Positions 2,009-30,063 of a stretch of DNA of 30,063 nt are shown here, one piece after another. Positions within the stretch are counted from its first letter, which is position 1; each line of letters begins with the position of its first letter. The notes under the pieces are model-generated. The model had not been told where the DNA came from, made no database searches, and worked only from the letters and a program-made list of their open reading frames with translations. Both the position numbers and the translations under genes were made by a program. The stretch comes from a virus. The DNA is taken from the IMG/VR virus record IMGVR_UViG_3300020578_000305, positions 1 to 30,063 of that record; one strand, written 5' to 3'.

Positions 2009-2276
2009 GTGCCCTTGGTCCTTGGTGGCAGTCCACTGGATTGACGCATTTGATTCAGAGAATGGCTGGATCCACACCAAAACCTACAAGGCAAAGCCAC
2101 AGTACGTGGTTTCGGTTGGCTGGCTATGGCCAGACTTACTTGAGGGATATGTGTCTGTCACTTGTTCATACTGCCCCGACGAGGAGCCGGAGATGGACAC
2201 GGTTGGCATGGTCACGCACATTCCCAGCGGCATGGTTGTGCAAGTTGTAATGCTGGACAACCCACCGCTACAGTAA
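1989..2276 (+). CDS. Conserved small phage protein, unknown function (95 aa)
   Basis: It overlaps the 3' end of the phosphoesterase gene by 20 bases. The product is beta-rich and tryptophan-rich (WIDAFDSENGWI, VVSVGWLWPDL) with a CSYCPDEEPE stretch and a C-terminal segment GMVTHIPSGMVVQVVML. The order W.DA....GW, SVGWL, then a short basic or hydrophobic beta pair is one I associate with small phage proteins of unknown role. Two cysteines spaced CxxC could bind metal but no second pair is present. No clear Shine-Dalgarno is seen, so translation is probably coupled to the upstream gene. Confidence 0.72.
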   Translation: MFAGLTKCPWSLVAVHWIDAFDSENGWIHTKTYKAKPQYVVSVGWLWPDLLEGYVSVTCSYCPDEEPEMDTVGMVTHIPSGMVVQVVMLDNPPLQ

Positions 2277-2317
2277 CTACACAACACCCACAACCTATAT
2301 TCACCGGAGGAGAACCG

Positions 2318-4495: not shown

Positions 4496-5055
4496 TGGAT
4501 TTCATTCCGAGATTGCTGGCGTTCGCGTCGGCATCGTTGTTGCTACTCGGGTTCGAGACTGTTGAGCAAGGTCAACAGCCTGCGACCGGCACAACAACGA
4601 CGGTGGTGGCGGGGGGTACCTCCTTCTCTCCCGCCACCACCACCACCACCACCACGATTGCCACCCCCACCACGACTGCCAACGACGCAATGGTTCCGCC
4701 CACGGCTCGGTGTGGTCAGTGGTGGGGGCTGGCATTGGATTTGGGCTGGCATGCCGACAGCATGCCGACCCTCGACTACGTGATGTGGCGCGAGTCCCGG
4801 TGCGACCCGACGCAGCACAACACGACGCTGAATCCAGACGGTTCGACCGACATCGGATTGACTCAAATTAACGACAGGTCATGGTGTTTGCCTACGCGCT
4901 GGTATCCGGACGGATACTTGCAAACAGTTGGCGTACTAACTACTGTTGGGTGCAACGACTTGTTTGATCCGGCGACGAACCTGAAAGCAGCCAAAGCCAT
5001 ACATGAGTACCACACCGGACAAGGACAAAACGGGTTCGGGGCGTGGGGGTTATAG
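4495..5055 (+). CDS. Exported lytic transglycosylase (SLT/lysozyme-like) with Thr-rich linker
   Basis: A protein of 186 residues that should cleave peptidoglycan outside the membrane. Residues 1-20 form a hydrophobic signal sequence (LLAFASASLLLLGF). Residues 30-62 are a Thr/Pro/Ala-rich linker that includes seven threonines in a row. The catalytic domain (about 70-186) contains WRESRCDP (catalytic Glu100), STDIGLTQIND (117-127) and NLKAAKAIHEYH, then FGAWGL at the C-terminus; these are the hallmark motifs of SLT-type transglycosylases. Two or more cysteine pairs suggest disulfides outside the cell. Signal plus linker points to Sec export rather than holin-dependent release. The start codon overlaps the previous stop by one base. 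Confidence 0.87.
   Translation: MDFIPRLLAFASASLLLLGFETVEQGQQPATGTTTTVVAGGTSFSPATTTTTTTIATPTTTANDAMVPPTARCGQWWGLALDLGWHADSMPTLDYVMWRESRCDPTQHNTTLNPDGSTDIGLTQINDRSWCLPTRWYPDGYLQTVGVLTTVGCNDLFDPATNLKAAKAIHEYHTGQGQNGFGAWGL
4634..4654 (+). repeat. (CCA)7 trinucleotide tract in the linker of the transglycosylase
   Basis: Seven uninterrupted CCA units, read as ACC codons, encode a threonine run in the low-complexity linker. Such tracts can gain or lose units in frame and so change linker length without affecting the catalytic domain. Confidence 0.8.
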
Positions 5056-5059
5056 CTAC

Positions 5060-5341
5060 ATGCAACTTTTAAGCGAATGGGAGTTGGTCAATCGTGACAC
5101 TTCATGGATGGAGTTTGCGCGTTGCAGGGGTGCCGACGCCAGCCTGTTCTTTGCGGAGCCAACCGTTGGTCGACACAAGAAACAAACCGAGGCGATAAAA
5201 TATTGCAGCAACTGCGTCGTTTACAAAAACTGTATGAAGTTCGCGATTGACAATCGGATTTCGCACGGCGTGTGGGGCGGTCTTACACCCACACAACGAC
5301 GCCGGTATTGGGTTAACGGAGTGGCACATGACGGAGAATGA
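5060..5341 (+). CDS. WhiB-family iron-sulfur transcription regulator
   Basis: A protein of 93 residues from ATG 5060. Four cysteines (22, 49, 52, 58) sit in the WhiB arrangement: WMEFARCRGAD and SLFFAEP, then YCSNCVVYKNC, and the GVWGG turn (70-74) before a basic LTPTQRRRYW tail that contacts DNA in known members. The cysteines should hold a [4Fe-4S] cluster, and WhiB proteins act by binding region 4 of the primary sigma factor. Phage-borne members are known to alter host transcription, division and superinfection immunity (WhiB of mycobacteriophage TM4). ATG 5003 is an alternative start with 19 more residues, but it lies inside the upstream gene and lacks a binding site, whereas GGGGG lies about 10 bases before 5060. 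This gene is the best evidence for an actinobacterial host. Confidence 0.92.
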   Translation: MQLLSEWELVNRDTSWMEFARCRGADASLFFAEPTVGRHKKQTEAIKYCSNCVVYKNCMKFAIDNRISHGVWGGLTPTQRRRYWVNGVAHDGE

Positions 5342-8398: not shown

Positions 8399-9139
8399 AT
8401 GACACAAGAAACACAAACAACAACCAAACCAGCCAAGCCATTGACCGACTGGGAACGAGCAGAGTTTGCCGTGAAGCACTCAAACAGAGTGTTGCTTTAC
8501 GGTTTGCCCGGAACCGGCAAGACATACTTCGGTCTCAACGCAGGGCTGAAATCAGCAAGCGCCTACCGTCTCATCTGTACGGAAGAGATGACCGATGCCG
8601 ACTTGATTGGCTGCTACAAGCAGAACAGTCAAGGCACATGGTCATTCGCAGAAGGCGTTGGCATCAAGGCTTGGCGTGAAGGCGCAAGGTTGGTTGTTGA
8701 CGAAATCAACCGTATGAACGGTGATGTCGAGAGCCGTATGATGGCACTCATTGACAGCACTGCGTCAAGCAGTTGGCAACACCCAGACACTGGCGAAGTC
8801 GTCAAGCCACACGCTGACTTCAGCGTCGTAGCAACTATGAACGGTGAGCCAGCAGACCTAGCACCTGCTGTGCTTGACCGTCTCATCGTCAGGTGTGAGG
8901 TCAATACCCCACACCCTGATGCCATTGCTGCCTTGCCCGAATACCTTCGTGCCTTGGCAGTCAAGATGACCGAGCCACACAACCCAGACCGTTACTCGTT
9001 GCGAGCATTCGTTGACTTCAACGCAATGTACACAGCGAGCAACAACCTAGAACACAGCGCCCAAGTCATCTTCCCCAATGACTTCAGCGATGTGATGGCT
9101 GTGCTCAAGGTGGCAACAACCAAGGCGGTAACCAAATGA
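8399..9139 (+). CDS. MoxR-like AAA+ ATPase
   Basis: A protein of 246 residues. Walker A is GLPGTGKT (35-42), Walker B is LVVDEINR (98-105), sensor 1 is VVATMNG (143-149), and the following LAPAVLDRL (154-162) carries the arginine of the AAA+ interface. GARLVVDEINRMNGDVESRM and the ATMN sensor are characteristic of the MoxR/CbbQ/GvpN branch, which usually works with a VWA-domain partner to remodel or insert cofactors into client proteins. The length is shorter than typical MoxR (about 300), lacking much of the C-terminal lid. The VWA gene follows with an ATGA overlap, so the pair should be made in step. ATP-driven remodelling is well supported; the client is unknown. Confidence 0.92.
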   Translation: MTQETQTTTKPAKPLTDWERAEFAVKHSNRVLLYGLPGTGKTYFGLNAGLKSASAYRLICTEEMTDADLIGCYKQNSQGTWSFAEGVGIKAWREGARLVVDEINRMNGDVESRMMALIDSTASSSWQHPDTGEVVKPHADFSVVATMNGEPADLAPAVLDRLIVRCEVNTPHPDAIAALPEYLRALAVKMTEPHNPDRYSLRAFVDFNAMYTASNNLEHSAQVIFPNDFSDVMAVLKVATTKAVTK

Positions 9140-13313: not shown

Positions 13314-15263
13314 ATGCCAAAAGGTAAGCGCGAGATCACGCCGGATGACCGTGCCATGTTTTGGCAGGCCATGTCTTCCGGGGTCAACATGAAGGAGGCC
13401 GCGCGGATGGCGGGCATTTCCTACTCCAGTGCCACCAAGTGGGTTGCCAAGGCCAAGGCCACGTCGGCGGAACTTGACAAACAGAATCTGGAGTTTGGCA
13501 AACCAAGTGGCGGCAATGCACTGAAGCGCGACCTTGCCGTCACCCGCGACCTGCCCCCGGTCGTGCCACCCGCACGATTGAACAAAGAGGCAGCCAGGTC
13601 CCTGGAAGACTTTGACTACTTCCGCATGCGTTACCTGGGCCGTGTGCCCAGCCCGTGGCAGGTGGATGCCGCGTACAAGATCGTGGCCAAATTGGAATCC
13701 CACGACAAGGAGTTCCTGGTCCTCAACTGCCCCCCTGGTGCCGGCAAGTCGACTTTGTTCCACGACGTAGCGGTGTGGTGCATCGTGCGCAACCGGGCCA
13801 TCCGAGTGATGATCGGGTCGATCTCCCAGACCCTGGCCAAGATGTACTCGCGTCGTATCCGCGAAACCTTGGAGCGCACCAGCCCGCTGCAGCCCGACCC
13901 GGAAATGATCCGACGCGGACTGGCGGTCAATGCCGATGGATGTTTGGCCCTGGACTTCGGCAGGTTCAAGCCAACCAACGTAGGGGCGCTTTGGAGGGCG
14001 GAGGAGTTCATCGTCGAGCAATACGGATCCGGGGGCCTGGACAACAAAGAGCCGACCGTTTCTGCCTACGGCATCGAGTCGGAGTTCATCGGACACCGTG
14101 CCGACCTGTGCTTGTTCGACGACGTCGCGTCCCCGGAAAACTCCAAGGAGTCGGCAGCCCGTGACAAGTTGCTTGAGCGTTGGGACTCGATGGCCGAGGC
14201 TCGCGTCGAACCGGGCGGCGTGTTGGCGGTTATCGGCCAGAGGTTGGGGCCACAAGATCTCTACGCACACTGTCTGGCCAAGGTGACCTACGAAGAAGAC
14301 CCCGACGATTACGACGGCACCGACGTAACAAGCCCCAGCGAAAAAGAGCCGATCAAGAAATACAAGTACGACCACATCGCCTACCGTGCCTACTACGAGG
14401 ACATGGACACCGGACCCGAATCACGTCGCACCATTTCTCCGGCCTGGCCGTATGGCCCCCTGCTTGAGCCGTTCCGTTTGTCCTGGAAGGACCTGTCCTA
14501 CATCCGGCACAACTCGCCCAACAAGTTTGCCGTCGTCTACCAACAAGAGGACATGGCCGAGGGCAACTACCTAATCGAGCGCGTCTGGGCAACCGGTGGC
14601 ATGGGTGGTGATGGCGTGATGTATCCGGGGTGCATCGACAACGAACGCAGACCCGGTTACGTTCCACCGAACCTGGATCCGCCGATCATCTCGATTGCGT
14701 CGGTGGACCCGAGCCCGACGCAATTCTGGGCGATTCAGTGGTGGTTGTATCAGCCGCGCACCAACCTGCGGTTCCTCATCGACGTGGAGCGAGTGAAGCT
14801 CACGGCCGAGGAGTTGCTCGGCTTCAACACCACCACCGGCGATTTCTACGGATTGATGGAGGAGTGGCAGAACAGGTCGTGGAACTTGGGTTATCCGATA
14901 TCGCACTGGATCGTGGAAATCAACGCCGCGCAACGTTTCCTGCTTGCCCATGACTTCGTTCGCAAGTGGCAGGCTCGCCATCACGCCAACGTCGTTCCCC
15001 ACACCACCAGCCGCAACAAGCTCGACGACAACCTGGGCGTGGAGGCCCTGCTGCCACCGCTTTGGCGCAGCGGCTCGGTGCGTTTGCCGACCATGCGTGA
15101 CAACTGGAAAACGCTGGCGTTCGTGGACGAAATGACATCGTGGACGCGGGACAAAAAGAACGGCACCGACCTGGTGATGGCCCATTGGTTTGCCGAGCTG
15201 CACGTGCCGCAATTGTCGCCACTAAAGCAACCACCCAGGCTTTGGCGGCCGTCCTGGATTTAG
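13314..15263 (+). CDS. terL: Terminase large subunit with N-terminal HTH
   Basis: A protein of 649 residues that packages DNA into the procapsid. Residues 8-48 form an HTH (DRAMFWQAMSSGVNMKEAAR, then AGISYSSATKWVAKAK), like those of small terminase subunits. The ATPase domain has Walker A CPPGAGKST (139-147), Walker B LCLFDD (265-270) and motif III VIGQRLGPQDL (306-316). The RNase H-like nuclease domain has its acidic residues at Asp465 (SVDPSPTQ), Glu535 (IVEINAAQ) and Asp619 (TDLVMAHWFAE). The protein is longer than usual for TerL (450-600), mainly because of the N-terminal part. No separate small subunit was recognised. The gene has no Shine-Dalgarno; TAGTAT ends eight bases before the ATG. 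Confidence 0.94.
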   Translation: MPKGKREITPDDRAMFWQAMSSGVNMKEAARMAGISYSSATKWVAKAKATSAELDKQNLEFGKPSGGNALKRDLAVTRDLPPVVPPARLNKEAARSLEDFDYFRMRYLGRVPSPWQVDAAYKIVAKLESHDKEFLVLNCPPGAGKSTLFHDVAVWCIVRNRAIRVMIGSISQTLAKMYSRRIRETLERTSPLQPDPEMIRRGLAVNADGCLALDFGRFKPTNVGALWRAEEFIVEQYGSGGLDNKEPTVSAYGIESEFIGHRADLCLFDDVASPENSKESAARDKLLERWDSMAEARVEPGGVLAVIGQRLGPQDLYAHCLAKVTYEEDPDDYDGTDVTSPSEKEPIKKYKYDHIAYRAYYEDMDTGPESRRTISPAWPYGPLLEPFRLSWKDLSYIRHNSPNKFAVVYQQEDMAEGNYLIERVWATGGMGGDGVMYPGCIDNERRPGYVPPNLDPPIISIASVDPSPTQFWAIQWWLYQPRTNLRFLIDVERVKLTAEELLGFNTTTGDFYGLMEEWQNRSWNLGYPISHWIVEINAAQRFLLAHDFVRKWQARHHANVVPHTTSRNKLDDNLGVEALLPPLWRSGSVRLPTMRDNWKTLAFVDEMTSWTRDKKNGTDLVMAHWFAELHVPQLSPLKQPPRLWRPSWI

Positions 15264-15284: not shown

Positions 15285-18278
15285 ATGGCTGCCAAAAAAG
15301 ATCCATACAAGCGAATTCAAAAACGCTTCGTGCAGGCGCGCGAACCCGACGTCGAATACGAGGATTTGGACCCCGAGCGTCGCGAACAATTACAGAACCG
15401 TTTCAATATGTTGTCGCAAACCGTCCAGGGTCGCGGCACGATTGCCCGGCGCATTCTTGGCCCCGATGCCCCGCAGGAGCGCGTCAAGGCACTGCGCCAA
15501 CGCATTCGCCAAAACCTTCCGCAATCTGATGGTTCGTCAACACCGTCGGAAGATGCGACTCCGCCCGCCGGCCCGACGATTACAAACGCACGACTTAAGC
15601 CGACATCGGCCGACATTCGCAACATGCAAGTTGGATTCCGCGTGCAGGGTGAGCGCATCGAGGCCAGTCGTCGCGCTGCTTCCGCAATTACAACGACCGT
15701 AACGACGGCCAAGGATAAGGGTTCTGGTCGCATTGGCAAGGGTTACTTTTCAGTCCCCAAGAGTCCAACCGAATTTGCAAAAGAGGTTGGCGCGGGCCTG
15801 ATGGGCCAAGTTAGTTACGTCAACCGCGCATACATAAACCCGGTGATCAATGTCGGTATTGCCGCCTCAAATGTTCTCCGCTCACCGGGCCAGAAAAAAA
15901 CCAAATCACTTCCAACACTCAGCAATAAGGAAATTGCAGTTGAGGCGGCGTTGACGGTTGGCACCGCCGGTGCAGGTGCGATTCTAAAACCATTCTTGCG
16001 GCCAACGGGACAGTTTTTGAAGGGCGTGGCAACTTCGTTGGGCGGGCGCGGCGCGGTGAAAACCGGAGCAGCACTTGCCAACGTTGCCGAACGTCAAGCC
16101 GCGGCGGCTTCCGTGCGTGCCGACACAGCACGCCGACTGAGCGGGCAGGCCCAAATTCTTCGCGAAGGAATGTTGTACGATGATCAAAGCCCAATCACAC
16201 GCTCAACCCAGCCGAAATCGAGCGGCGTCACACGCAATCCTCCAAAGTCCAGCGGAATGGTCAAGAGCCCGACGGCCGAAACGGTTGTTTCCAAGTCGGC
16301 AAAACCCAAAGCATCCAAAGCTGCAAAACCCAAAGTTGCCAAAGCACCCAAACTCACAACAGCAAAAATCGAGGCAGCAACCGAAAAATACGCGCGTGGA
16401 TTCAACAAAGAAGTTGGCGAAATTGAGATGCAGGCAACCGAGTACACGCCGACGATGGTCGTTGAACAAATCTCCAAACCGGCGTCTACCAAGGCCAGGC
16501 AGGCAAAGCCAACAAGTGTCAAGCCGCTCAAACAAGAAACACCGAAGCAAACCACGAAAAAAATCGAGGCAGCGACCGAAAAGTATGCGCCGGGCTTCAA
16601 CAAACAAGTTGGCAAAACCGAAATGCGTTCGACGCAATACGAACCCATTGAAGTTTCTACTCCGGCTTCTCCCGTTGCTGAAGTAAAAACCTCCAAGCCA
16701 GCAAGGGCTTCGCGCAAAGCTACTCAAAAAAAAAGCGAAGTAGCAGCACCGCAAAACGTTAGCCCGGTTTCTGGATCAAAGTATCCACGCTCGGTCAAAT
16801 CTTCTGACCAAAAACAGGAGTTCGACAAGATATACGACGAAATGTCGGAATCTGGTTATTTTGATCAGGGCCATGGGGGTTTGGATGCAATTTTTGATAG
16901 CAGGAAATTTGATGACGTTGTTGAACGCGGCTACTTGACGGACAAACAGGTTGCAAAAATTAACAAAGACGCAGAGAGAATGCGTGCGGATTCTGTTACG
17001 AGGGAGATGACTGCTCGAAAAAAGACCCAAGTGGCAAAACCAAAAACTGCTGACGTAGCCCAACCCTCGGCGGAGGATTTGGAGTTTGCCCGCAAGTATC
17101 CGTACAGTTCCAAGACCGCCGACATTCTTAGGCGACAGCGCGGTATCCAAGATTACGTTCCGCCAGTGGGCAAACAAGATTTTCCAAAAATTGAAATCAA
17201 AACAGCCAGGGTTCAAAAGCCGGAATCAGACATTTTTAATGAACGCTTAAACGCAGTTGTTGCACAGCGACGCGCAGAACAAAAAGCGGCATTCCCTGGC
17301 TTCACGCCGAGAAAAGTCACGAAACTGGCGAAACGTGATCCGTCGTTAGACAGACTTGAAGAACGCGGCTCCATGATTTATCGCATGTATGACCAAGGTA
17401 TCGGTAGCAGAAAACGTCCTTCCGGCATGGCGGAATCAGAAGTACAGCGCGGCACGCCAATACAAAATCAAATGGACGATATTGCCGACATGATGCAGGG
17501 CGGAACCGGTCAGTTCCGTTACGCAGAAATCGCGGTTGGGTCAAAAGATGTTCAAAAAGAAATTGAACGAACCATAGTTCTTCCAACCGCCAAAATCAAA
17601 CGTGGCGAAGCAATCAACCCTCGCTATGTTCGCCGCACGAAAGCAACCAAGCAGGGCGAAATGCCAATGCCAACCCTGATGGGCGAGGGCATGGAGGAGT
17701 TCAGGCCGACCCGAATGCCACTCAGCACGGAGCGCGGACTGAGTCTTGAGCAACGCATTGCCAAGATGGAACGGGAGGATTTTCCGCAGGCGCGATCAGC
17801 ACGGCAAGCCCGCAAATTGTCCGAACAATCTCGTGGTGTCCCGGTTGAGCAACAGCAATTTACAACCGGAACCAAGGGTGGAAGTCCGCTTGGGGGCGCA
17901 GCGAAGAAGTCGCCCATTACTTCGGTTACAACAAAGAAGCCCATCAAGTACGAAAAGATCGTTAAGCCTGGCGGGCAAACGGTGTACAAACCGGTCAAGT
18001 TCAAGTCCGAAACCGTCCCCGCAATCGAAACCACATCCGGCCCAGTGCCAATAGATGAATTGCCACAGAAATGGAACGTGGATCCCACGGTTGTGGAAGC
18101 CGGTCGCAAAGCGCGCAAAGCATCGGAGCTTAGGTCACGTGCCACCCAGGCTGCGCGCTTGCGTAATCGAGGCATACAGGGAGAGGCTCGCGGCGTTACG
18201 CTTCAACAGACCGTTGAAGAAATCAAGAAGGGCAAAGCTTTCCAACGCCGCTTCGATGAACTCAAGGACAAAAAGTGA
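15285..18278 (+). CDS. Large disordered Lys/Ala/Pro-rich repeat protein (997 aa)
   Basis: It lies between TerL and portal. The N-terminus (MAAKKDPYKRIQKRFVQARE, then DPERREQLQNRFNML) is helical and basic. Residues 160-260 contain more hydrophobic, Gly/Ala-rich segments (IAVEAALTVGTAGAGAILKP) that could be membrane-active. Residues 300-500 are a basic AKP-rich region holding two copies of a 31-residue repeat. The remainder has charged helices and many Lys/Arg. No enzymatic motif is visible. The size, basic charge and position suit a capsid-internal, DNA-associated or ejected protein, but this is inference. It overlaps the portal gene by four bases, so its translation is linked to portal synthesis. 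No Shine-Dalgarno is seen at its start. Confidence 0.8.
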   Translation: MAAKKDPYKRIQKRFVQAREPDVEYEDLDPERREQLQNRFNMLSQTVQGRGTIARRILGPDAPQERVKALRQRIRQNLPQSDGSSTPSEDATPPAGPTITNARLKPTSADIRNMQVGFRVQGERIEASRRAASAITTTVTTAKDKGSGRIGKGYFSVPKSPTEFAKEVGAGLMGQVSYVNRAYINPVINVGIAASNVLRSPGQKKTKSLPTLSNKEIAVEAALTVGTAGAGAILKPFLRPTGQFLKGVATSLGGRGAVKTGAALANVAERQAAAASVRADTARRLSGQAQILREGMLYDDQSPITRSTQPKSSGVTRNPPKSSGMVKSPTAETVVSKSAKPKASKAAKPKVAKAPKLTTAKIEAATEKYARGFNKEVGEIEMQATEYTPTMVVEQISKPASTKARQAKPTSVKPLKQETPKQTTKKIEAATEKYAPGFNKQVGKTEMRSTQYEPIEVSTPASPVAEVKTSKPARASRKATQKKSEVAAPQNVSPVSGSKYPRSVKSSDQKQEFDKIYDEMSESGYFDQGHGGLDAIFDSRKFDDVVERGYLTDKQVAKINKDAERMRADSVTREMTARKKTQVAKPKTADVAQPSAEDLEFARKYPYSSKTADILRRQRGIQDYVPPVGKQDFPKIEIKTARVQKPESDIFNERLNAVVAQRRAEQKAAFPGFTPRKVTKLAKRDPSLDRLEERGSMIYRMYDQGIGSRKRPSGMAESEVQRGTPIQNQMDDIADMMQGGTGQFRYAEIAVGSKDVQKEIERTIVLPTAKIKRGEAINPRYVRRTKATKQGEMPMPTLMGEGMEEFRPTRMPLSTERGLSLEQRIAKMEREDFPQARSARQARKLSEQSRGVPVEQQQFTTGTKGGSPLGGAAKKSPITSVTTKKPIKYEKIVKPGGQTVYKPVKFKSETVPAIETTSGPVPIDELPQKWNVDPTVVEAGRKARKASELRSRATQAARLRNRGIQGEARGVTLQQTVEEIKKGKAFQRRFDELKDKK
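16359..16646 (+). repeat. Two 31-codon repeats within the 997-aa protein
   Basis: The units lie at 16359-16451 (residues 359-389) and 16554-16646 (residues 424-454). Both have the pattern T.KIEAATEKYA.GFNK.VG..EM..T.Y.P, with 22 of 31 residues identical. Between and around them are AKP/KPT-rich spacers. Confidence 0.85.
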
Positions 18279-20029: not shown

Positions 20030-20410
20030 ATGGCTGAAGAAGCAAAAGGCCGCAGGACGGATCTCAACATGCCGCAGGCAAAGGTAAGGCGCATGGTCGC
20101 CAAGAATCAAACATATGGCCAGGCGACCGAACAGATGGAAAGCCAACGCGCAGTACCGATGGGTGCTGGCCCAACGCAGGTCCAGGCACAACAAAGACCG
20201 AAGCCGGGTGGTTCCGACTTTTTGCGCCGCACCGAACGTCCGGATGAACCAATTACTGCAGGCGCACCGTTTGGTCCCGGAGTTGGTCCCGCAGCTGCCG
20301 GCGTGCCGAGATACGACGCAAGACAGAATGCGTTGGACGAAATTAAATTCATCGCGGAGGTAGGTGGAAACGAAGATTTGTTGGATCTTCTGTCACGCTA
20401 CATGTCATAA
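20030..20410 (+). CDS. Small head-associated protein (126 aa), unknown function
   Basis: ATG 20030 follows the portal stop directly, with GGGGG four bases before it. The product is polar and disordered for the first 95 residues (KNQTYGQATEQMESQRAVPM, GAGPTQVQAQQRPKPGG) and ends in a helical segment QNALDEIKFIAEVGGNEDLL. I have seen short proteins with this QATEQ....AVPMG pattern next to portal genes in actinophages. The function is not known; a connector or scaffold-binding peptide is possible. Confidence 0.8.
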   Translation: MAEEAKGRRTDLNMPQAKVRRMVAKNQTYGQATEQMESQRAVPMGAGPTQVQAQQRPKPGGSDFLRRTERPDEPITAGAPFGPGVGPAAAGVPRYDARQNALDEIKFIAEVGGNEDLLDLLSRYMS

Positions 20411-23400
20411 TGGATTTTGACAGGTTTTACACCAACGAAGAGTACAACCAGATTGCCCAACAGTTTCGCGCTGCATCATCCGGGCCAACCGCCGATCCAC
20501 AAAAACTTGCTGAGATAACGCGCAAGTATCCATGGATGAAACCAGAAACAGCCTTGACCCTGGGTCGATTCAACGCGTCGGATGCCGCCATAGACATTGT
20601 CGGCGAACAAGCGGCAATGCGCGAATTGGACGACTACGAAAGAAAAAAGAACACCCAGGGTGACTTGATTGCCCCGTTGCGCTACGTCTTCGACGGGTTG
20701 GGCTGGCTCAAAAAGGGCACGTCTGCGGCAGTGGATTTTATATTGCCCGAGCTCGGCGAGACAGCACTGAAACGCGTGGCGTTACCGTTTGCCAAATCGG
20801 GGCGCTATACACAAACGGCGGCCAAGGGTGCGATCCGTTGGATCAGCGCAATAGGCGATATTGCTCCGGAAACAGCGGCAAACATCGGGTCAATGGTCGC
20901 CGGTTCGTCCAACTACGACCTGTTGGGGTTGTGGGAATCGACATCTTTGGCGGTGATGTTGGAGAACTGGCAAGATACCGGTTCTGGTTATTTCATGAAC
21001 CAAACCCTTCGCGAGGAACAGGCCAAGCGTGCCCGTGCATTTCGTGGCACGATTTACGGCAATGCGTTCACCATTGGTCGTGGTTTGACCAGTTTTGCCG
21101 GAGAGGGATCCTTGGCGTACAAATACGGATCCGGCATCATTGACGCAGCGGTTTTGCTTTCAATACCGGATCCAACCAAGTATCTGGCCAAGGGCATTTA
21201 TGCAATCGGCCAAGGCACCAAGGTTGCCGGCGGGGTGTACCGGCAAATTCAATTGGGAGAAGACATCAATGCCGCACTCAAGGCGGGCGGCGGCATTCGC
21301 GGCTTGGTGCCGCTCATGTCTCGCCAGGACGCCAGTGCCGTTAAAACCGCACTGCGCGCCTCAACCAAAGACCTACACGGAGAAGCAGGGCTTCTCAAGG
21401 AACTCTCCGGCGAAAGCGTGGACGGCACAAAGTTCTTGAACTTCATGAACAGCAACCCCCTTGCGCGACGCCTCGTGGACCACCTTGTCGAGGAGGATAG
21501 CGCCAAAAACATACTTGAGGACGTGTTCCGTTACGAGATTAGTAACGAAACCGCCGCCGGTTTGGCCACCGCAAAAACCAGGGAAGAGGTTATTTCGGTG
21601 TTGACCGAACCGTTCACCCTGGGTGATCGCACGCTCAACGCGAAGATCGGCCGCTACAGAGTAAACCAACCGTTCAAGTACATCCGCCAAAGTCGTTTCT
21701 TCACGCAAATGCCAAAGTCAACAATCGTTACATCTTCCGACGACCCGTTGGAAAACACCGAGTCCGTGCGCAACATGATTCTTAGCATGCGCACGGCCGG
21801 TGTCGCCGAGAACAAAATTTCTTCGTGGGCAGACAAAGCCATTGGTGAATTCAGCAAGAAGGGCACCGGGGCTGGCAGGAAGAACATAATCGACGAATAC
21901 GACAACGTCGTTCGCGAGGTGATGCGAGCCAACGGCGTTGAGGAAATAATCATCAACCGCATCATGGAAAATGCGAGCGCCGGCATCGAAAGGATGCGTA
22001 CTTACTTCATCAATCGCGTCGGCCTACAGACCGACAACGGTCACTTAGCCATGATGGCCCAAATTGTCAAAGACAACATAGACGACAAGGTGCTGGCCGA
22101 AACGATGGCGCGGGCTCTACCGCTTGGCGACGAAATAGCCTTTGCTGGTCCCGCAACCATTAGTCAGCTCTTGTCACGCGTACAGGTTTTGCCAGATGCG
22201 CGTGAGTTGCGCAGGGTTACGCGCAACCCGCTTTTCCAACAACTGTTTTCAAAGGTTGGATTGGGGGAAATGGGGAAGCTGCCGATTGCCGGTAGACGCG
22301 CCAAAGTACAAGTAGAGCGTTATCGAAACCCCGCACGAGCCGAGGAGCTGAAGAAAATCGTGCGCGAACAACAGGCGCTTGACCCTTCGCAGCGCAATCA
22401 GGATCTGTATGAACAGGCGGCAAAGGATCTTGGGCAAATGACCTATACCGAGGAAATTCGCACCATTACCGGCCAACCGCGCCGCTTGATAGACGCAATA
22501 GATTTTGTCCAGAACAAAATTTGGAAACCACTCAATCTTGCCACGGTTGGCTATATCGTGCGCAACGGCATAGACGCCCAGATCCGCATGTCCTTCGGCG
22601 GCGCGCGCTCGTTGCTCAATGGCGGAGCACTGCACCCACTCGACTTCATTCACATTGCAATCGGCCTGCCTGGCAAGGGCACGAAATACGGCAAGAGTAT
22701 TACCGGTATTGATTTGCGCAACCTTGGTGTTGCCAGGCGGTCTTTGCGTACGGGCGAGGTAATTCCAGAATCTGCCGAGGGGGCCGAATTTATATTCGTT
22801 GGTGAAAAACGTTTTAAGAACAATTCGATTGGGTTGGCCGCCGCCAACAAATACAGGGAAAGAACGGGCAAACCCATGTTCGTCCCAGACGAGGGGGACA
22901 TGTTGGACGACGTAACCGCCAGAACGGAAGTTCACCGCCAACTCCGAGAGGGAATCAACCTTTCTTCCTCCAAGGTGGGATTTAGTCCAGAAGACGAAAT
23001 CCGCCATCGTCACGGAACCGGAAGTTTTGTCGGCGCAGAACGCGGAAAACCAGGCTCGAAACAAACCAGAATGCACACGCGCGGAATCATTTACAATCTG
23101 CAAAATTATCAAAGCAGCGAAATGTACAAGAGGATCGCCCGCGGTTTTTATCAAGGCAAAACCGACGACGAGATCGCCGACGACGTCGCTGATTGGATGC
23201 TCAAGAACAAAAGCAGTTTTGATTATCAAAGAAGCAAGGACATGCACAAGTACGGCCGCGCATACAAGGCAAGCGAAAGATCCGAACAGACTTTTGCCCT
23301 GCCAATCGATTTCAACGAATTTGGCGACGATGTTATACGCCAGGTGTTGCGGGCCGATGCGCTAAAGGTTGACATCGCGGCCCTGAGGGAACTTACCGGC

Positions 23401-25620
23401 AACGTCGAAGAACTTAAATTTGCCGCTGCGTATGACGCGATTCCGGAGTTCGGAAAAACAAAAGTCGTGCGTTCCTCGGAAATTGTGCCATACGGTGCAG
23501 GCTTCAAACCCAAAGAACTCAAGGTGGGTCAACGCGTGCGCATTGGGGACGAACAGGGCGTGATTACCAACCTCGCTAAAACCGAGGACGATGCCGGGGA
23601 CCTGGTTACTTTTGTGCCGTTTCGCGAGACGGGCGTGCTGGGCAATTATTCAAATGGTTCCAGTAGCCCGACCTTTCAGCAGCTGATTGAGCGCATCAAT
23701 ATTTGGGACGGAACAAGAGGGGTGCCGAACCAGGTTCGCGTCGAACAAATGGCATACGACGATCCGGGTTTTGACCTTAACAACACCGTCTCCGGTTTTG
23801 TAAATGGCGCAACCGGCTGGATGTTCAACGGACTAAACGATCTGGCCACGCGTCGCTTGGAGCGCTCCCCGCTGTTCCGGCAGTACTACTACCAGGAGGT
23901 ATCAAAACACGTCGACAAACTTTCATACGAAGAGGGAAAACGCCTTTACGCAGACATGATCGACAGGGCGGCAGAGGCTGGGCACGACAGCATACGTTCG
24001 TATCTGGGCGAAGGTTTGACGCAACGGAACAGGGTATCCACAAAGCTTGAGCGCCTGAATACCCGTGCTGCATCGTCGGCCAAGGGAACGTTGACGGTTC
24101 GCGACCTCGATGATTACGCACGATTCAAGGCGCTCGGTGACACCAAGGATTTGTTGTACGACGCGTCTACGCGGAACAACTTTGTCGACGCACTGCGCAT
24201 CGTCATGCCCTTCGCCGATGCATGGAAGGACGTGGTCGGCACATACTTGATGCTTTCGGGACGACACAACATCCACATGATCCGACAGTTTGCCCGCGTT
24301 TACTCCGGCGCGGAAGAAGCTGATCCGGACCAGGATGGTCGCGGGTTTTTCTTCAGGGACCCACAAACCGGCGAAGTCCAATTTTCCTTCCCAATGTCCG
24401 GGTCAATTTCCAAAAAACTAACCGGGCTTGATGCGCCACTTGCTGCGCCAGTTGCAAGGTTGTCGCAGGGCATCAACGTGTATCCAGCCCTTGGTCCGTA
24501 TGCGCAACTTGGTTTATCAAGCATTCTGTCCGGCAACCCCAAGTACAACGACATCAAAGAACTGTTCTTGCCGTACGGCGAAACCGACATCTCGGAAACG
24601 TTGACGGGAAACATTGTCCCCGGTGTCGGGCGCAAGTTGTACGAGGCATTCATGGCCGATACCAACAACCTGTCGAACACCTACGGCAATGTTTATACGG
24701 AAACCATTCGCGCCCTGAGCGTGAACCCCAAATACGACCAATCAACCCCAGAAGGCGTCAATAGCCTGCTTGCCGACGCCAAGTCGAGGGCTCGCACCCT
24801 TACGATCATGCGAATGATGTCGCAGTTCCTCGGACCATCGGCGGGTGTCCAACAGTGGAGAATACCCACCAAGATTGGCGATCAGTACGTCGCGGTCCTG
24901 ACCGAACAGCTCCGCAAATTCCAGGAAGAGGATTACGACACCGCAATCCTCAGATTTGAAAACCTGTATGGCGAAGAGCTTCAGCTGTATGTTTCGTCCA
25001 AGAGCAAGGCTCTTCGCGGCGGTCTCGAAGCAACTCAGGAGTTTGGCGATTGGACCGCCCTGAATCAGGACATACTCAACGAATACGAACGCGTGGGCGC
25101 ATACTTTGGCCCCTCCGGTTCGGATTTCAATTTCACTGTTTGGGGTCAACAGTTGGAGGAGGGTTCTCGCGAAAAATTGAGCGATAGGGAAATGATCAAG
25201 CTGGCACAGTTGCGCGTCGGCTCTGCCAAATACCGCGCCTTTCGTCGGACCCTGCCGGCCAATTTGAGCGAAAAACAGAGCAGCGTGTTGGCTGCCTATC
25301 GGGTTTTGTTGAACGAGGAATTGGGCGACGGCTTCCCCATCAAGGCGGAGTTCTTGGTTGGTGATTATCAAAATTCGTTGAGCGAACTTCGCGATGCACT
25401 AAAAGATCCGCGTCTGGCCGAGAATCCAATCATGGATTCCCTGCGTCAATACATGGAGGCCCGAGACTCGCTTGAGTCGCAAAGCGGCGTTTCCCTTAAG
25501 GCCAAGCGTAATCAAAAATCTCGCGCCAGGCTGTACACATTCGGCGAGTATTTGTCCGATCAAAACACCGAGTTTGGTAGAATCTGGGACCGTTTACTAG
25601 CCCAAGAGGTTGAGTCGTGA
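20410..25620 (+). CDS. Very large virion-associated protein between portal and capsid (1736 aa)
   Basis: The start codon overlaps the previous stop (TAATG). The protein is mostly helical. Visible landmarks are an N-terminal region FYTNEEYNQIAQQFRAAS; Gly/Ala-rich helices at about 90-260 (TAANIGSMVAGSSNYDLLGL); IWKPLNLATVGYIVRNGIDA at about 705-725, a pattern seen in large proteins of other actinophages; a beta-barrel-like segment LKVGQRVRIGDEQGVITNL at about 1037-1055; and FADAWKDVVGTYLMLSG near 1267-1283. The C-terminus is helical and charged. No RNA polymerase, protease or lytic motif was recognised. Size and position suit an internal or ejected virion protein (a polyvalent protein), but this is inference. 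It could also be a tail or connector component. Confidence 0.82.
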   Translation: MDFDRFYTNEEYNQIAQQFRAASSGPTADPQKLAEITRKYPWMKPETALTLGRFNASDAAIDIVGEQAAMRELDDYERKKNTQGDLIAPLRYVFDGLGWLKKGTSAAVDFILPELGETALKRVALPFAKSGRYTQTAAKGAIRWISAIGDIAPETAANIGSMVAGSSNYDLLGLWESTSLAVMLENWQDTGSGYFMNQTLREEQAKRARAFRGTIYGNAFTIGRGLTSFAGEGSLAYKYGSGIIDAAVLLSIPDPTKYLAKGIYAIGQGTKVAGGVYRQIQLGEDINAALKAGGGIRGLVPLMSRQDASAVKTALRASTKDLHGEAGLLKELSGESVDGTKFLNFMNSNPLARRLVDHLVEEDSAKNILEDVFRYEISNETAAGLATAKTREEVISVLTEPFTLGDRTLNAKIGRYRVNQPFKYIRQSRFFTQMPKSTIVTSSDDPLENTESVRNMILSMRTAGVAENKISSWADKAIGEFSKKGTGAGRKNIIDEYDNVVREVMRANGVEEIIINRIMENASAGIERMRTYFINRVGLQTDNGHLAMMAQIVKDNIDDKVLAETMARALPLGDEIAFAGPATISQLLSRVQVLPDARELRRVTRNPLFQQLFSKVGLGEMGKLPIAGRRAKVQVERYRNPARAEELKKIVREQQALDPSQRNQDLYEQAAKDLGQMTYTEEIRTITGQPRRLIDAIDFVQNKIWKPLNLATVGYIVRNGIDAQIRMSFGGARSLLNGGALHPLDFIHIAIGLPGKGTKYGKSITGIDLRNLGVARRSLRTGEVIPESAEGAEFIFVGEKRFKNNSIGLAAANKYRERTGKPMFVPDEGDMLDDVTARTEVHRQLREGINLSSSKVGFSPEDEIRHRHGTGSFVGAERGKPGSKQTRMHTRGIIYNLQNYQSSEMYKRIARGFYQGKTDDEIADDVADWMLKNKSSFDYQRSKDMHKYGRAYKASERSEQTFALPIDFNEFGDDVIRQVLRADALKVDIAALRELTGNVEELKFAAAYDAIPEFGKTKVVRSSEIVPYGAGFKPKELKVGQRVRIGDEQGVITNLAKTEDDAGDLVTFVPFRETGVLGNYSNGSSSPTFQQLIERINIWDGTRGVPNQVRVEQMAYDDPGFDLNNTVSGFVNGATGWMFNGLNDLATRRLERSPLFRQYYYQEVSKHVDKLSYEEGKRLYADMIDRAAEAGHDSIRSYLGEGLTQRNRVSTKLERLNTRAASSAKGTLTVRDLDDYARFKALGDTKDLLYDASTRNNFVDALRIVMPFADAWKDVVGTYLMLSGRHNIHMIRQFARVYSGAEEADPDQDGRGFFFRDPQTGEVQFSFPMSGSISKKLTGLDAPLAAPVARLSQGINVYPALGPYAQLGLSSILSGNPKYNDIKELFLPYGETDISETLTGNIVPGVGRKLYEAFMADTNNLSNTYGNVYTETIRALSVNPKYDQSTPEGVNSLLADAKSRARTLTIMRMMSQFLGPSAGVQQWRIPTKIGDQYVAVLTEQLRKFQEEDYDTAILRFENLYGEELQLYVSSKSKALRGGLEATQEFGDWTALNQDILNEYERVGAYFGPSGSDFNFTVWGQQLEEGSREKLSDREMIKLAQLRVGSAKYRAFRRTLPANLSEKQSSVLAAYRVLLNEELGDGFPIKAEFLVGDYQNSLSELRDALKDPRLAENPIMDSLRQYMEARDSLESQSGVSLKAKRNQKSRARLYTFGEYLSDQNTEFGRIWDRLLAQEVES

Positions 25621-26498
25621 GCGAAAACAACGAAAAAGACAAAGACACAAATCAACAGTCGCCAACAACCGACATGACCAAGGCGGCATTTCCCATTGAT
25701 TCAACGAGCAGTGCGCCGATTGGCTCGGGAATGTTTAGTAAGATTAATCAGACTGCGCCGGGACAAACGGCAACACAAGAGCAGGCGGACCTTAGGCGAG
25801 CAATTGAGGGTGATAATCCGACAATTTTTGTTGGTGAGGCCGCATTGCGCAAACGCGGGGTGCCAATGGGTGGCGGCCCAATGCTTCAAAATTATTTTTA
25901 TGGACAGGGCTTGCTTGACGAAAACGGGGTTCTTCAGAGAGTATCTTACAACGAAGCAGATCTCAACACGGAAGCACAAACCGTGTTGGGCAATATGACT
26001 TCGGAAATGCGCAAACAATGGGCGAGGGAAGCAAAACGCGTCGGTTTTTATGGAAACAACAATCCAAGCCCCATAATTTTGTCGAGAGGGGACGCGTTTA
26101 ACTCGACGGATGTAAATGCCATGGAGTTGTTTTTGTTCTCTGCCAACAGAAAAAACCAGACGGTTTCCGCTTTTCTGCAAACAGTCGGGGGTTTTGCTTC
26201 TGTTCAAACCGGCACGACCAGAGTCGCACCCGTGGTCAGCTCCCCGGAGGACATCGGCTACTACCTGAACCAAACATCCTTGAGCATGACTGGCAAACCC
26301 ATGACCAAGGCGATTGCAAAACAACTAATCGAGCAGTATCAGAAAATGGAACGTGAAGCCGCAACCTCGCGCGTGTCGGCCCCGAGCAAATCGGTGTTTG
26401 CCGAAAGCGCCGTGAAGAAACGTTTGCCAGACGAAACGGCCGGCTACGCCGTGGGTAAAGCGATTCAATTGGCGTTTCAGGCACTGGCGGGTAGATGA
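25617..26498 (+). CDS. Putative virion protein (293 aa), unknown function
   Basis: It starts at GTG 25617 in a GTGA overlap with the 1736-residue gene. The first 75 residues are polar and disordered (SENNEKDKDTNQQSPTT). A globular part follows (AALRKRGVPMGGGPMLQNYF, then MRKQWAREAKRVGFYGN and FNSTDVNAMELFLFSANR), and the C-terminal third is helical with a Lys/Arg-rich end. The mid-region (MRKQWAREAKRVGFYGNNNP, NSTDVNAMELFLF) is typical of actinophage proteins encoded between portal and capsid. It lacks a signal peptide and enzymatic motifs. A head or internal virion role is inferred from context. Confidence 0.8.
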   Translation: MSENNEKDKDTNQQSPTTDMTKAAFPIDSTSSAPIGSGMFSKINQTAPGQTATQEQADLRRAIEGDNPTIFVGEAALRKRGVPMGGGPMLQNYFYGQGLLDENGVLQRVSYNEADLNTEAQTVLGNMTSEMRKQWAREAKRVGFYGNNNPSPIILSRGDAFNSTDVNAMELFLFSANRKNQTVSAFLQTVGGFASVQTGTTRVAPVVSSPEDIGYYLNQTSLSMTGKPMTKAIAKQLIEQYQKMEREAATSRVSAPSKSVFAESAVKKRLPDETAGYAVGKAIQLAFQALAGR

Positions 26499-27520
26499 TG
26501 GCCGAGGGTCGCGAACAATACATCAAGGATCAACTGGCACTTGAAAACCTGAAGGACACCCCCGCTAACCGAAAAAAACTCGGGGCGCGCTACGACAAGA
26601 TATATAAGGGCGGCGACCGCGGTGACTGGCGTACCTACTTCAAGCTGCAGTTTCCACAGCTTGCCGACATGCTCGACGGCGCAGAAGGAGAAAAGAACGC
26701 CCGCGCGGTGTTTGGCGACCTGATTGATCTCTTCATTGAGGTGGCCAACAATCCCAAAAACTTCGATTTGGAAAGCACCGCTGGTCAAGCGGCGTTTACC
26801 AACCGGGTAAAGAGCACCAAATACGCAATTAAAACGACCGACAACCAGGCCAAATGGGATGCCCTGGAACAAGTCGACAAAGATCGTCAGATTGCGTCCG
26901 CCAAGCGGGCTTTGTCATCGGCGTTTGCATCGTCGCAACTTACGGTTACCGAACTCAACGAGCTGGCAACCCTGTCGTTGCGCAACGGATATACCGATCT
27001 AGAACTTAAATACTTGGTTGCCGACAAACTCAACACTCGCCCCGGGGGCCGGGACTTGTTTGAAACCGACGATGCCACCAAACTGCGCAGCGCCTTACGC
27101 AGTTACAACTATCTTGGTCAGGTAAGCGACGAAACCATGAGAGCCGCGCTGACCGGTTCCAGCATCAACGATGTTCCGCAAAGTTCGGAATTGTTGATTG
27201 CAAAAGCCAAGAATTTTGCGAAGACCAAGTACGAAACCTATGCCAAGTACATTGATCAGGGCTTTACCGTTGACGACATCTTCGAGCCGTTCAAAGAGAT
27301 CGCGGCCAAAACCCTGGAACTAAATCCAGTGCAGGTCAGCCTTGACAAATTTGATGCCGCCCTCATCGGCAAGAAGGACGGCACTCCATATTCTGCCAGT
27401 GAGTGGTCGCGAGAACTGAAATCCAACCCCGACTATGGTTGGGAATACACGCAAAATGCGCGCAACTCGGCAATGCGAATGGTGATGAATCTTGAGAAAG
27501 CGTTAGGATTCCGAGAATGA
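26495..27520 (+). CDS. Putative internal virion protein (341 aa)
   Basis: It starts in an ATGATG overlap with the previous gene. The product is almost all helical: YIKDQLALENLKDTPANRK, VFGDLIDLFIEVANNPKNF, AKRALSSAFASSQLTVTELN, and a C-terminal part with YIDQGFTVDDIFEPFKEI. The pattern with a Y..YI.QGF.VDDI.....E....LELNP block is one I associate with virion proteins of actinophages encoded next to the 425-residue type that follows. It carries no catalytic motif. It is probably in the head interior or at the head-tail junction; the exact role is unknown. Confidence 0.8.
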   Translation: MMAEGREQYIKDQLALENLKDTPANRKKLGARYDKIYKGGDRGDWRTYFKLQFPQLADMLDGAEGEKNARAVFGDLIDLFIEVANNPKNFDLESTAGQAAFTNRVKSTKYAIKTTDNQAKWDALEQVDKDRQIASAKRALSSAFASSQLTVTELNELATLSLRNGYTDLELKYLVADKLNTRPGGRDLFETDDATKLRSALRSYNYLGQVSDETMRAALTGSSINDVPQSSELLIAKAKNFAKTKYETYAKYIDQGFTVDDIFEPFKEIAAKTLELNPVQVSLDKFDAALIGKKDGTPYSASEWSRELKSNPDYGWEYTQNARNSAMRMVMNLEKALGFRE

Positions 27521-28794
27521 GCATGATGTATCAACCAAGCAACCAGGCGTTTTTTGACCCCGAAGATGTTCGCGAACTTTCACCAGAGCAGGTGCAACAA
27601 CTCATTGATCAGGGGGTGTTATCTCCAGCGCAACCAGGTTTGAACGTTCCCGCCGATACGACCATCCCGCCAGAGCAGGTCGCACCTCCTGTTGACCCTT
27701 ATGCCGCGAAACGCCGTTATTACACGGCTAGTTCCAAAGTTGTTATTGAGAATGGTCGCCGCATCCAAGTTGTTACTGACATTGACGGTAATGAAACTCG
27801 TACCGACATCGGACCAGCAGAAACTGTCGATGGCAACACGAAACCTGGCGAAACGGAAGCTGAGCGTATCGCTCGTCTTGACCGTGAGGAATCAGCCCGT
27901 CAGTTTGCCGCATCCCAAGCAGCAGAAGCCGCCGCTAGGGGTCAGCGACGAGAAAGCGCACGCCAAATAGTCAAATCTTTCTTGAGCAAATACAACATCT
28001 CGGGGCTCGACGACAGCATAAACAACATTTTGAATGACGGCATTGAGGACAGCAATGCAGTTCTTTTTATGTTGCGCGATACTCCTGAGTTTCAAAAAAG
28101 ATTTGCCGCCAACAGAAGGCGGAAGGAAAGTGGATTTGCGGAACTTGACTTTGCCACATACATTGGCATGGAAAATGCATATCGCGAAACCATGCAGGCG
28201 TTCGGATTGCCAGAGGGTTTTTACAATGATCAAAAAGATTTTGAAAAATTAATTGAGGGCGATGTTTCGCTTGCGGAACTTACTAATCGCATCAGGGATG
28301 GGTTTGTCAAGGTTCGCGATGCCGACCCGGCGGTTCGTCAGCAAATGTTTGAGCTGTATGGGGTTACGGAGTCTGATCTGGCCGCATATTTCATTGATCC
28401 AGAGAGGTCTCGACCCCTGATGATGGCCCAGGACTACAAGAAACAGGCCGCCGCTGCCAGCATTGCTGCACGTGGCTTGGAGCAGGGCGGTTTGCAGTTG
28501 AGCAAAGAGGAGGCCGAGTCATTGGCGGGCCGAGGAGTTACGCCAGAACAAGCCCGCGCCCAGTTCACACAAAGACGCGAATTGGCTGGTTTGTTTGAGG
28601 AAATGGGCGGCGAGGAGTCGTTAACCAGGCAACAAAAACTCGGTGCCACCTTTGGATATGACGTAGAAAGCCAAATAAAACTAGAACGCCGCCGTGACCT
28701 GCGCTTGGGTGAATTTAGAGGGGGCGGTGGATTTGCCCGAACTAGCGGTGCTACCTCCGGCACGGTTGAAACCGGCGTAGGAACCGCCCAGTAA
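27517..28794 (+). CDS. Putative internal virion protein (425 aa)
   Basis: It starts in an ATGA overlap. Residues 1-105 are Pro/Gln-rich and acidic (EQVQQLIDQGVLSPAQPGL), followed by a long charged helix (about 108-150, RIARLDREESARQFAASQAA) and a globular helical domain. That domain contains YRETMQAFGLPEGFYNDQKD, VSLAELTNRIRDGFVKVRDA and YGVTESDLAAYFIDPERSRP, a signature I have seen in actinophage structural proteins. The C-terminal part has alternating helices and a Gly-rich tail (GGGGFARTSGATSGTVETG). It is the last gene before the capsid promoter. A structural role is likely, while the precise position in the virion is not shown. Confidence 0.82.
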   Translation: MSMMYQPSNQAFFDPEDVRELSPEQVQQLIDQGVLSPAQPGLNVPADTTIPPEQVAPPVDPYAAKRRYYTASSKVVIENGRRIQVVTDIDGNETRTDIGPAETVDGNTKPGETEAERIARLDREESARQFAASQAAEAAARGQRRESARQIVKSFLSKYNISGLDDSINNILNDGIEDSNAVLFMLRDTPEFQKRFAANRRRKESGFAELDFATYIGMENAYRETMQAFGLPEGFYNDQKDFEKLIEGDVSLAELTNRIRDGFVKVRDADPAVRQQMFELYGVTESDLAAYFIDPERSRPLMMAQDYKKQAAAASIAARGLEQGGLQLSKEEAESLAGRGVTPEQARAQFTQRRELAGLFEEMGGEESLTRQQKLGATFGYDVESQIKLERRRDLRLGEFRGGGGFARTSGATSGTVETGVGTAQ

Positions 28795-29379: not shown

Positions 29380-30063
29380 GTGTCCAAGACACAAACGTCG
29401 AGTCTGTCAACAGACCAGACAGCATTTGACAGGATTGCGTACTTCGCACTCCGCAGCGAACTTCTGTTCGACGCGGTGGCAGACGTAATGCCTGTCGCAC
29501 AAGCAATGCCGGGTTCCAGCGTCAAGTTCACGATTTTCAACGACTTGACCGCCGTTACTTCGGCCCTCACCGAAGACACCGACGTGACACCGGTGGCCAT
29601 GAGCGACAGCCAAGTCGAAGTCACCCTTGCCGAGTACGGCAACGCGGTGAATACGACCGCCAAGTTGCGTGGCACATCGTTCCTCGATGTCGATGCGGCA
29701 GCAGCGAACATCGTCGGCTACAACGCAGGCATCTCGATTGACTCGGTGATCCGCGATGTCCTTGCCGGTGGCACCAACGTCATCTTCGGCGGTGGCGGTT
29801 CATCCGATCCGGCAGGCCGCACCACGGTCCAGGTGGAAGACATCATCGAAGCGAACGACGTTCGCAAGATCGTGTCGGCTCTCCGCAGCGCGAACGCGGT
29901 GTCGTTCAACGGCATGTACATGGGTTTCATTCACCCCGACGTGTCGTTCGACCTGCGCCGTGAAACGGGTGTCGCCTCGTGGCGTGACCCGCACGTGTAC
30001 AGCGACCCCGCCGGTATCTACAACGGTGAAGTCGGCGCGTTCGAGGGTGTCCGTTTCATCGAG
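29380..30063 (+). CDS. Major capsid protein, N4-gp56 type (partial, runs off the right edge)
   Basis: 228 residues are visible from GTG 29380; AGGTAAAG lies about 6 bases upstream. The sequence follows the N4-gp56 capsid family (HK97 fold). In order it shows FDRIAYFALRSELLFDAVAD, AMPGSSVKFTIFNDLTAV, LTEDTDVTPVAMSDSQVE, VTLAEYGNAVNTTAKLRGTS and AANIVGYNAGISIDSVIRDV, then MGFIHPDVSFDLRRETGV. The missing C-terminal part should hold the rest of the A-domain. The order scaffold - capsid under one promoter is the standard head module. The start is uncertain by a few codons, since no ATG occurs near the beginning of the frame. Confidence 0.93.
   Translation, partial: MSKTQTSSLSTDQTAFDRIAYFALRSELLFDAVADVMPVAQAMPGSSVKFTIFNDLTAVTSALTEDTDVTPVAMSDSQVEVTLAEYGNAVNTTAKLRGTSFLDVDAAAANIVGYNAGISIDSVIRDVLAGGTNVIFGGGGSSDPAGRTTVQVEDIIEANDVRKIVSALRSANAVSFNGMYMGFIHPDVSFDLRRETGVASWRDPHVYSDPAGIYNGEVGAFEGVRFIE

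Follow-up and report, generated by a model that had tools for sequence, protein, structure and literature searches.

A cysteine-free giant protein encoded between portal and capsid genes as a probable ejected entry protein of short-tailed actinophages

The virus record IMGVR_UViG_3300020578_000305 of IMG/VR, analysed here over its positions 1 to 30,063 (the window), carries between its portal and capsid genes a long open reading frame (ORF) for a giant protein that lacks cysteine. The ORF starts with ATG, has its sole stop codon at its end and takes up 5211 of the 30,063 bases (17.3%), in keeping with the original prediction, made from the DNA letters, which had placed here a gene of 17 percent of the window. 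The same prediction had assigned the capsid protein to the N4-gp56 type, and this assignment holds, with TIGR04387 matched at E 5.7e-29 (101.4 bits against a cut-off of 60) and the Pfam family PF13252 at E 2.5e-37. Five other contigs, including one 3' fragment, encode proteins 48-76% identical to the giant along most of its length or the whole of it, and full-length relatives reach down to about 31% identity, so that sequence conservation marks it as a real gene and no chance open frame. Its neighbourhood, composition and relatives suggest that it probably sits inside the virion of a short-tailed actinophage, is ejected at entry and helps to build a conduit through wall and membrane.

By sequence comparison the giant is no orphan, being a member of a family of proteins of about 1500-2040 amino acids in three lineages: group A, the window type; group B, the Streptomyces type; and group C, the ct2KA10 type. 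Searched by tblastn, a set of 50,697 phage records returned five from Streptomyces phages, with 24% identity over giant residues 1231-1567. The counterpart there, Kumquat gp9 (1644 amino acids), is annotated "hypothetical protein" and belongs to phrog_10618, of unknown function; proteins of its type occur in 29 Streptomyces phage records, and the group B lineage includes cultured Streptomyces podophages (Beephvirinae). Kumquat gp9 resembles the window giant in gene place, size, C-terminal homology and lack of cysteine, and differs from it in that identity is only about 21-24% in the aligned part and the N-terminal half is not joined. Profile scans of IMG/VR found 49 relatives of the window giant, the untruncated ones of 1581-2040 amino acids, and 58 of the Streptomyces-type giant, the two sets partly overlapping. 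The third lineage was reached through the portal protein, which is 22% identical in Caudovirales sp. ct2KA10; at the giant's place this virus has a cysteine-free gene product of 1764 amino acids with nine IMG/VR relatives.

In profile-profile comparison with hhalign it is the C-terminal part of the protein that connects the lineages, A with B at E 6.8e-15 (profile columns 1034-1677) and A with C at E 1.3e-6 (profile columns 1190-1677); the comparison of B with C gave only a 29-column match (E 0.0009), which was not used. The N-terminal halves of the three lineages are not joined by profile matches. Against phrog_10618 the window giant is not listed up to E 0.1, and its group A relative L033 matches at E 2.6e-9. 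The gene family is already in databases, where it stands without a function, and no report on its function was found in the open-access literature, mostly titles and abstracts.

The genes around the giant keep a fixed order. In a survey of 52 sources the succession terL, portal, p126, giant, p293, p341, p425, scaffold and major capsid protein (MCP) was found wherever the contig is long enough (Table 1), with p126 detected in 43, the portal gene in 41, p293 and p341 in 50 each and p425 in 47. The nine sources that lack p126 are those whose giants are cut at the 5' end, and p293 was detected neither in L038 nor in L040, which is truncated. The scaffold profile missed most Streptomyces-type loci; the Kumquat gene there still matches phrog_7813 and, weakly, the head scaffolding family phrog_233 (E 0.0024). 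The ct2KA10 record (L053 3158-18766, OX376640) is unannotated and has the same portal-to-capsid gene order, with the PHROG families 104, 8200, 6654, 8424, 7813 and 1357 following one another as elsewhere. Each junction from p126 to p425 in the window overlaps by 1 to 4 bases, as is typical of translational coupling. Tail-like genes (phrog_7578, phrog_11667, phrog_23837) lie after the capsid gene. The product of p997, between terminase and portal, is rich in lysine and arginine, apparently disordered and of widely varying length in relatives; its slot holds an endolysin in Streptomyces phages, and L019 shows an odd weak match to the p997 profile upstream of terL.

Table 1. Genes and protein features of the window, by position
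Feature	Position	Strand	Evidence
WhiB domain, actinobacterial host marker	5105-5305	+	PF02467, E 3.4e-20
Large terminase subunit (TerL)	13314-15263	+	phrog_38, E 2.5e-65
p997, 997 amino acids, very basic (isoelectric point 10.1), cysteine-free; possibly another internal protein	15285-18278	+	
Portal protein, 584 amino acids	18275-20029	+	phrog_104, E 3.9e-18
p126, 126 amino acids, cysteine-free, unknown function; overlaps giant start by 1 base	20030-20410	+	phrog_8200
Giant protein, 1736 amino acids, 0 cysteine; proposed internal/ejected virion protein	20410-25620	+	
Conserved WKPLNLATVGYIVRNGIDAQIRM motif, giant residues 705-727; similar string in Streptomyces relative	22522-22590	+	
Predicted beta strands around VGQRVRIGDEQGVITNL, giant residues 1034-1074	23509-23631	+	AlphaFold model
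C-terminal module, giant residues ~1125-1736, common (in part) to all three lineages	23782-25617	+	
Giant residues 1241-1400, among best conserved in group A; pLDDT mostly < 50 from residue 1252	24130-24609	+	
p293, 293 amino acids, cysteine-free; overlaps giant end by 4 bases	25617-26498	+	
p341, 341 amino acids	26495-27520	+	phrog_34303/6654
p425, 425 amino acids, cysteine-free, unknown function	27517-28794	+	phrog_8424
Probable scaffold, 172 amino acids	28817-29335	+	phrog_7813
Major capsid protein, N4-gp56 family, cut by window end	29380-30063	+	TIGR04387, PF13252

The decisive pattern is the exclusion of cysteine from the giant and its partners. Counted over all loci as complete unique proteins, related sequences included, cysteine is absent from 65 of 73 giants, 81 of 81 p126, 79 of 79 p293, 82 of 83 p425 and 78 of 123 p341 proteins; the corresponding figures for comparison are 0/57 for TerL, 0/70 for the portal, 19/57 for the MCP, 3/18 for tail294 and 0/9 for tail617. 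The remaining eight giants have 10 cysteines in all, between residues 8 and 43 when the longest ORF is read; in seven of them homology or annotation (annotation in Geostin) places the start downstream of these cysteines, L038 being undecided. When giants are clustered at 60% identity, the resulting 27 contain 2 cysteines in 45,154 residues; the 3'-truncated L062 has one. The 45 p341 proteins with cysteine have exactly one each, and in 42 of these 45 it is the cysteine of the NlpC/P60 motif DCSG, the catalytic residue. Within the window the giant, p997, p126, p293, p341, p425 and the scaffold have none, the 11 left-part ORFs checked have 2 to 7, TerL has 6 and the portal 1; Kumquat gp9 again has none.

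How does this compare with proteins of known fate? In the portions of T7, P22 and N4 that were retrieved, all five ejection proteins of at least 500 amino acids are free of cysteine, and all seven other counted late proteins of that size have at least two. Cysteine-free are T7 gp15 and gp16, P22 gp7, gp20 and gp16, and N4 gp50 (3008 residues seen), gp51 and gp52; between 2 and 8 cysteines are found in T7 gp12, gp17 and portal, P22 portal and tailspike, and N4 gp53 and portal. The crAss001 cargo proteins gp45, gp46, gp47, gp49 and gp50, of 534-2412 amino acids, hold 2, 0, 1, 1 and 3, and the muzzle protein gp44 holds 10 in 1371 amino acids (roles as given in the accessible text of PMC10172136). 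Depletion of cysteine is usual in podophage ejection proteins, without formally defining them, and the giant shares it. For N4-like phages the lack of cysteine in the giant virion RNA polymerase (vRNAP) has been proposed to aid tail passage or cell entry (PMC3715699, PMC2784036, in the parts accessible).

The relatives of p341 add an enzymatic side to the gene set. Kumquat differs from the window in having two p341-type partners, gp11 with an NlpC_P60 domain (Pfam, E 3.3e-29) and gp12 with an SLT domain (E 5e-6), both assigned to phrog_6654 like the window's p341; these adjacent paralogues (L001 12181-14789) have different N-terminal hydrolases and a C-terminal part in common. The p341-type partner in L038 has an SLT_3 domain (E 5.9e-12). 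Two p341 copies are present in 38 of the 85 loci with complete copies, and the versions of 523-524 amino acids in L018 (9314-10885), L025 and L032 have about 200 extra N-terminal residues, for which Pfam gave no match in L018 and L032. Lysozyme activity typically swaps between ejection proteins, according to the accessible text of PMC8954989. Far from the late genes, a protein of 186 amino acids encoded at 4495-5055 matches a lysozyme-like SLT_3 domain in Pfam (E 1e-6); it could be the endolysin, or it could supply the wall-cutting enzyme that the entry set lacks here.

The gene with the WhiB domain (5003-5341) encodes a phage-borne actinobacterial regulator. WhiB was found in 14 of the 19 records searched, that is, in the window and in 13 of 18 related records, and in a control of 14 genomes it was matched only in Corynebacterium glutamicum; because of its presence in the window and these relatives, the host of the window virus is probably an actinobacterium. 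The early part of the window also has genes for a YqaJ-type recombinase nuclease and an AAA_5 ATPase (2162-3259 and 8399-9139). As to the tail, Abafar (Beephvirinae), whose giant is 99.1% identical to that of Kumquat, is described in the accessible text of PMC11536984 as a podovirus whose tail measures 16 nm. Apart from the giant, there is no ORF of more than 732 amino acids in five largely covered records (four of the window group, one of the ct2KA10 group), and therefore no candidate for a tape measure. The giant itself was considered for that role and rejected: at the tape measure ratio of 1.5 A per residue used in PMC11536984, 1644 amino acids predict about 247 nm against the 16 nm of the Abafar tail, and no long tail is seen.

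The giant has no recognised domain, as originally stated: Pfam gave nothing up to E 0.1, NCBIfam nothing up to E 1, and PHROGs no usable match (best E 0.073). A large-polyvalent-protein or enzymatic domain was not found by Pfam in the giant and 11 relatives scanned, and weak Pfam matches in the relatives (E 0.016-0.22) were dropped as mutually inconsistent. The three segments quoted in the prediction are indeed there, VRNGIDAQ at residues 717-724, VGQRVRIGDEQGVITNL at 1039-1055 and FADAWKDVVGTYLML at 1268-1282. Two AlphaFold models, for residues 1-860 (23 sequences) and 690-1736 (25 sequences), are mostly helical, with a mean predicted local distance difference test (pLDDT) of 58.7 and 62.1. 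In these models strands are placed around VGQRVRIGDEQGVITNL at residues 1042-1045, 1048-1056 and 1065-1074, a helix runs through the FADAWKDVVGTYLML region over residues 1258-1283, mostly at pLDDT < 50, and the strongly conserved stretch from about 1252 to about 1424 is largely modelled below that same value. The PDB profile sequence search gave no match for residues 690-1736; for residues 1-860 its matches, to a designed helical repeat (E 0.0014), RiPP/LigA-type and other helical chains, were taken as generic helix. Below E 0.018, Foldseek against BFVD returned only phage proteins, uncharacterised or unnamed, that look like homologues, and VIA-align gave best Z scores of 6.4 and 6.1 over short helical stretches, under the tool's stated noise level. 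A clear match to a known tail or portal family, named at the outset as one of two outcomes that would refute injection, was not found with these low-confidence models, and new folds do not follow from the absence of a match. A pattern scan of genome contigs yielded 236 matches and no relatives of the giant, with no prophage or host evidence there.

Comparison with known internal proteins brings out likeness of kind. With the ejection proteins T7 gp15 and gp16 and P22 gp7, gp20 and gp16 the giant shares large size, a mostly helical structure (from a low-confidence model here), depletion of cysteine, clustered genes and, in some phages, linked peptidoglycan-hydrolase activity; it is unlike them in lacking a detectable sequence relation, in that the window genes stand between portal and capsid, and in hosts that are actinobacteria, not Gram-negatives. 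The N4 vRNAP gp50, taken here with gp51 and gp52, is likewise a cysteine-free giant from a phage with the same capsid protein type; the window protein differs in being about half as long, with no polymerase domain found and no sequence relation. The crAss001 proteins gp45-gp50 are also large and low in cysteine, and those cargo proteins were detected in virions by mass spectrometry (PMC10172136, accessible text); gp45, gp47 and gp50 show no sequence relation to the giant, and for the RNA polymerase function of the crAss001 set no counterpart was found here. In numbers, hhalign of the group A and B profiles against the single sequences of T7 and P22 gp16 gave E 0.24 or worse, and group A against the first 3008 residues of N4 vRNAP gave E 0.05 over 78 columns at a probability of 1.0%. 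Against control sequences the best rows, judged to be at chance level, were B with T7 gp15 over 20 columns and A with P22 portal over 15, both at E 0.035, and B with p997 (E 0.015). The tail-gene profiles found no match to T7 gp11, gp12 and gp17, P22 gp4 and gp10 or crAss gp43 and gp44.

Because cysteine is excluded from the giant together with its partners as it is from known ejection proteins, because the gene lies next to the portal gene, and because relatives have hydrolase partners and neither a tape measure gene nor a long tail is seen, we favour an internal protein ejected at entry. The evidence drawn upon is that of sequence, namely gene order, family, cysteine exclusion, the hydrolases of relatives, WhiB and the lack of a tape measure candidate; from it we infer presence in virions, ejection and conduit formation. 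In the mechanism proposed, p126, the giant, p293, p341 and p425 would be made from one operon, tightly coupled, that follows the portal gene, and the giant would be packed inside the head near the portal. On docking of the virion it would be threaded largely unfolded through the short tail and would help to form a conduit across the thick actinobacterial cell wall and membrane; in many relatives the peptidoglycan would be cut by partners of the p341 type. On this reading the giant would work like the proteins of T7, P22, N4 and crAss001 while standing, by sequence, outside those tested. The original prediction of an injected multi-domain protein therefore fares unevenly: injection is indirectly supported by the cysteine pattern, the portal position, the relatives' hydrolases and the missing tape measure and long tail, and the multi-domain, polyvalent part is not supported, Pfam having shown no such domain. 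Its appeal to N4-gp56 capsids as companions of giant ejected proteins likewise stands for the capsid type and falls short in that the giant has no sequence relation to N4 vRNAP.

Several observations weigh against ejection. By hhalign the giant has no sequence relation to the internal proteins of T7, P22, N4 and crAss001 tested, its models are of low confidence, and a 19-residue hydropathy scan finds no strong membrane helix, the best window (KD19) reaching 1.19 compared with 1.44 in T7 gp16 and 1.18 in P22 gp16. The window's own p341 shows no hydrolase domain in Pfam. It is a group B relative, and not the window virus, for which podovirus morphology has been documented, and the literature searched contained no virion proteomics or structure for the giant family. 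Nor is lack of cysteine specific, since the T7 and P22 scaffolds, N4 gp56 and gp57, P22 gp26 and some capsid proteins have none; some cargo or ejection proteins do hold it, such as T7 gp14 (1) and crAss gp45 (2). In the Streptomyces records, two of the partners are annotated "minor tail protein".

Could the giant instead be an external, portal-proximal part of the short tail (nozzle, knob or adsorption apparatus) and remain on the virion? The gene's place just after the portal, that annotation of the two Streptomyces partners and the predicted strands at residues 1034-1074 would suit such a part. Yet the tail-like genes follow the capsid gene and their products mostly contain cysteine, unlike the giant; the known external proteins T7 gp12 and crAss gp44 hold 5 and 10 cysteines; and no fold match to tail proteins was obtained, from models too weak to exclude one. 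We consider an external tail part unlikely. An internal core or scaffold-like assembly protein, organising portal and capsid without being ejected, would account for a gene between the portal and the scaffold and capsid genes, and the scaffolds T7 gp9 and P22 gp8 are likewise free of cysteine; a separate scaffold-sized gene (phrog_7813) directly before the capsid gene, and partners with peptidoglycan hydrolases, needless for an assembly factor, make this role improbable. Least probable is ejection mainly as a cytoplasmic effector or enzyme, akin to a virion RNA polymerase or a polyvalent anti-defence protein, which size, lack of cysteine and a capsid of the N4-gp56 type recall through N4 and its injected vRNAP, and which is opposed by the absence of enzymatic or large-polyvalent domains in Pfam, NCBIfam or PHROGs and by non-significant hhalign comparisons with crAss gp47 and gp50 and with N4 vRNAP, the latter over its first 3008 residues. 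PHROGs gave no RNA polymerase match for the giant; its string DQDGR (1307-1311), which resembles the DxxGR-like motif tied to RNA polymerase (PMC2784036, accessible text), is invariant in six group A sequences, is not kept in Kumquat and was taken as chance.

Beyond the probable ejection of the giant, a wider proposal is about evenly poised, if anything tipped slightly against: that short-tailed phages of actinobacteria carry an independently evolved, cysteine-excluded ejectosome of five genes, p126, a giant of about 1500-2040 amino acids, p293, p341 with its swappable hydrolases, and p425, stored in the head and forming a conduit through a thick Gram-positive-type wall, and that cysteine exclusion, relaxed only for the catalytic residue of NlpC/P60, is a general signature of ejected proteins. 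The accessible text of the review PMC8954989 describes ejection proteins as common in podophages of Gram-negative bacteria, counting Mycobacteria among these hosts, and as absent from phi29-like phages. Descriptions of this strategy have so far come mainly from viruses of Gram-negative hosts, so that a set in actinophages would add a new form to a known kind of system. If the proposal is true, short-tailed actinophages, including cultured Streptomyces phages, would have crossed the wall with a giant internal protein of their own; the unannotated phrog_10618 and its relatives, found in many environmental virus contigs, would gain a function; and the cysteine pattern would offer a simple, testable means of spotting ejected proteins that similarity searches miss.

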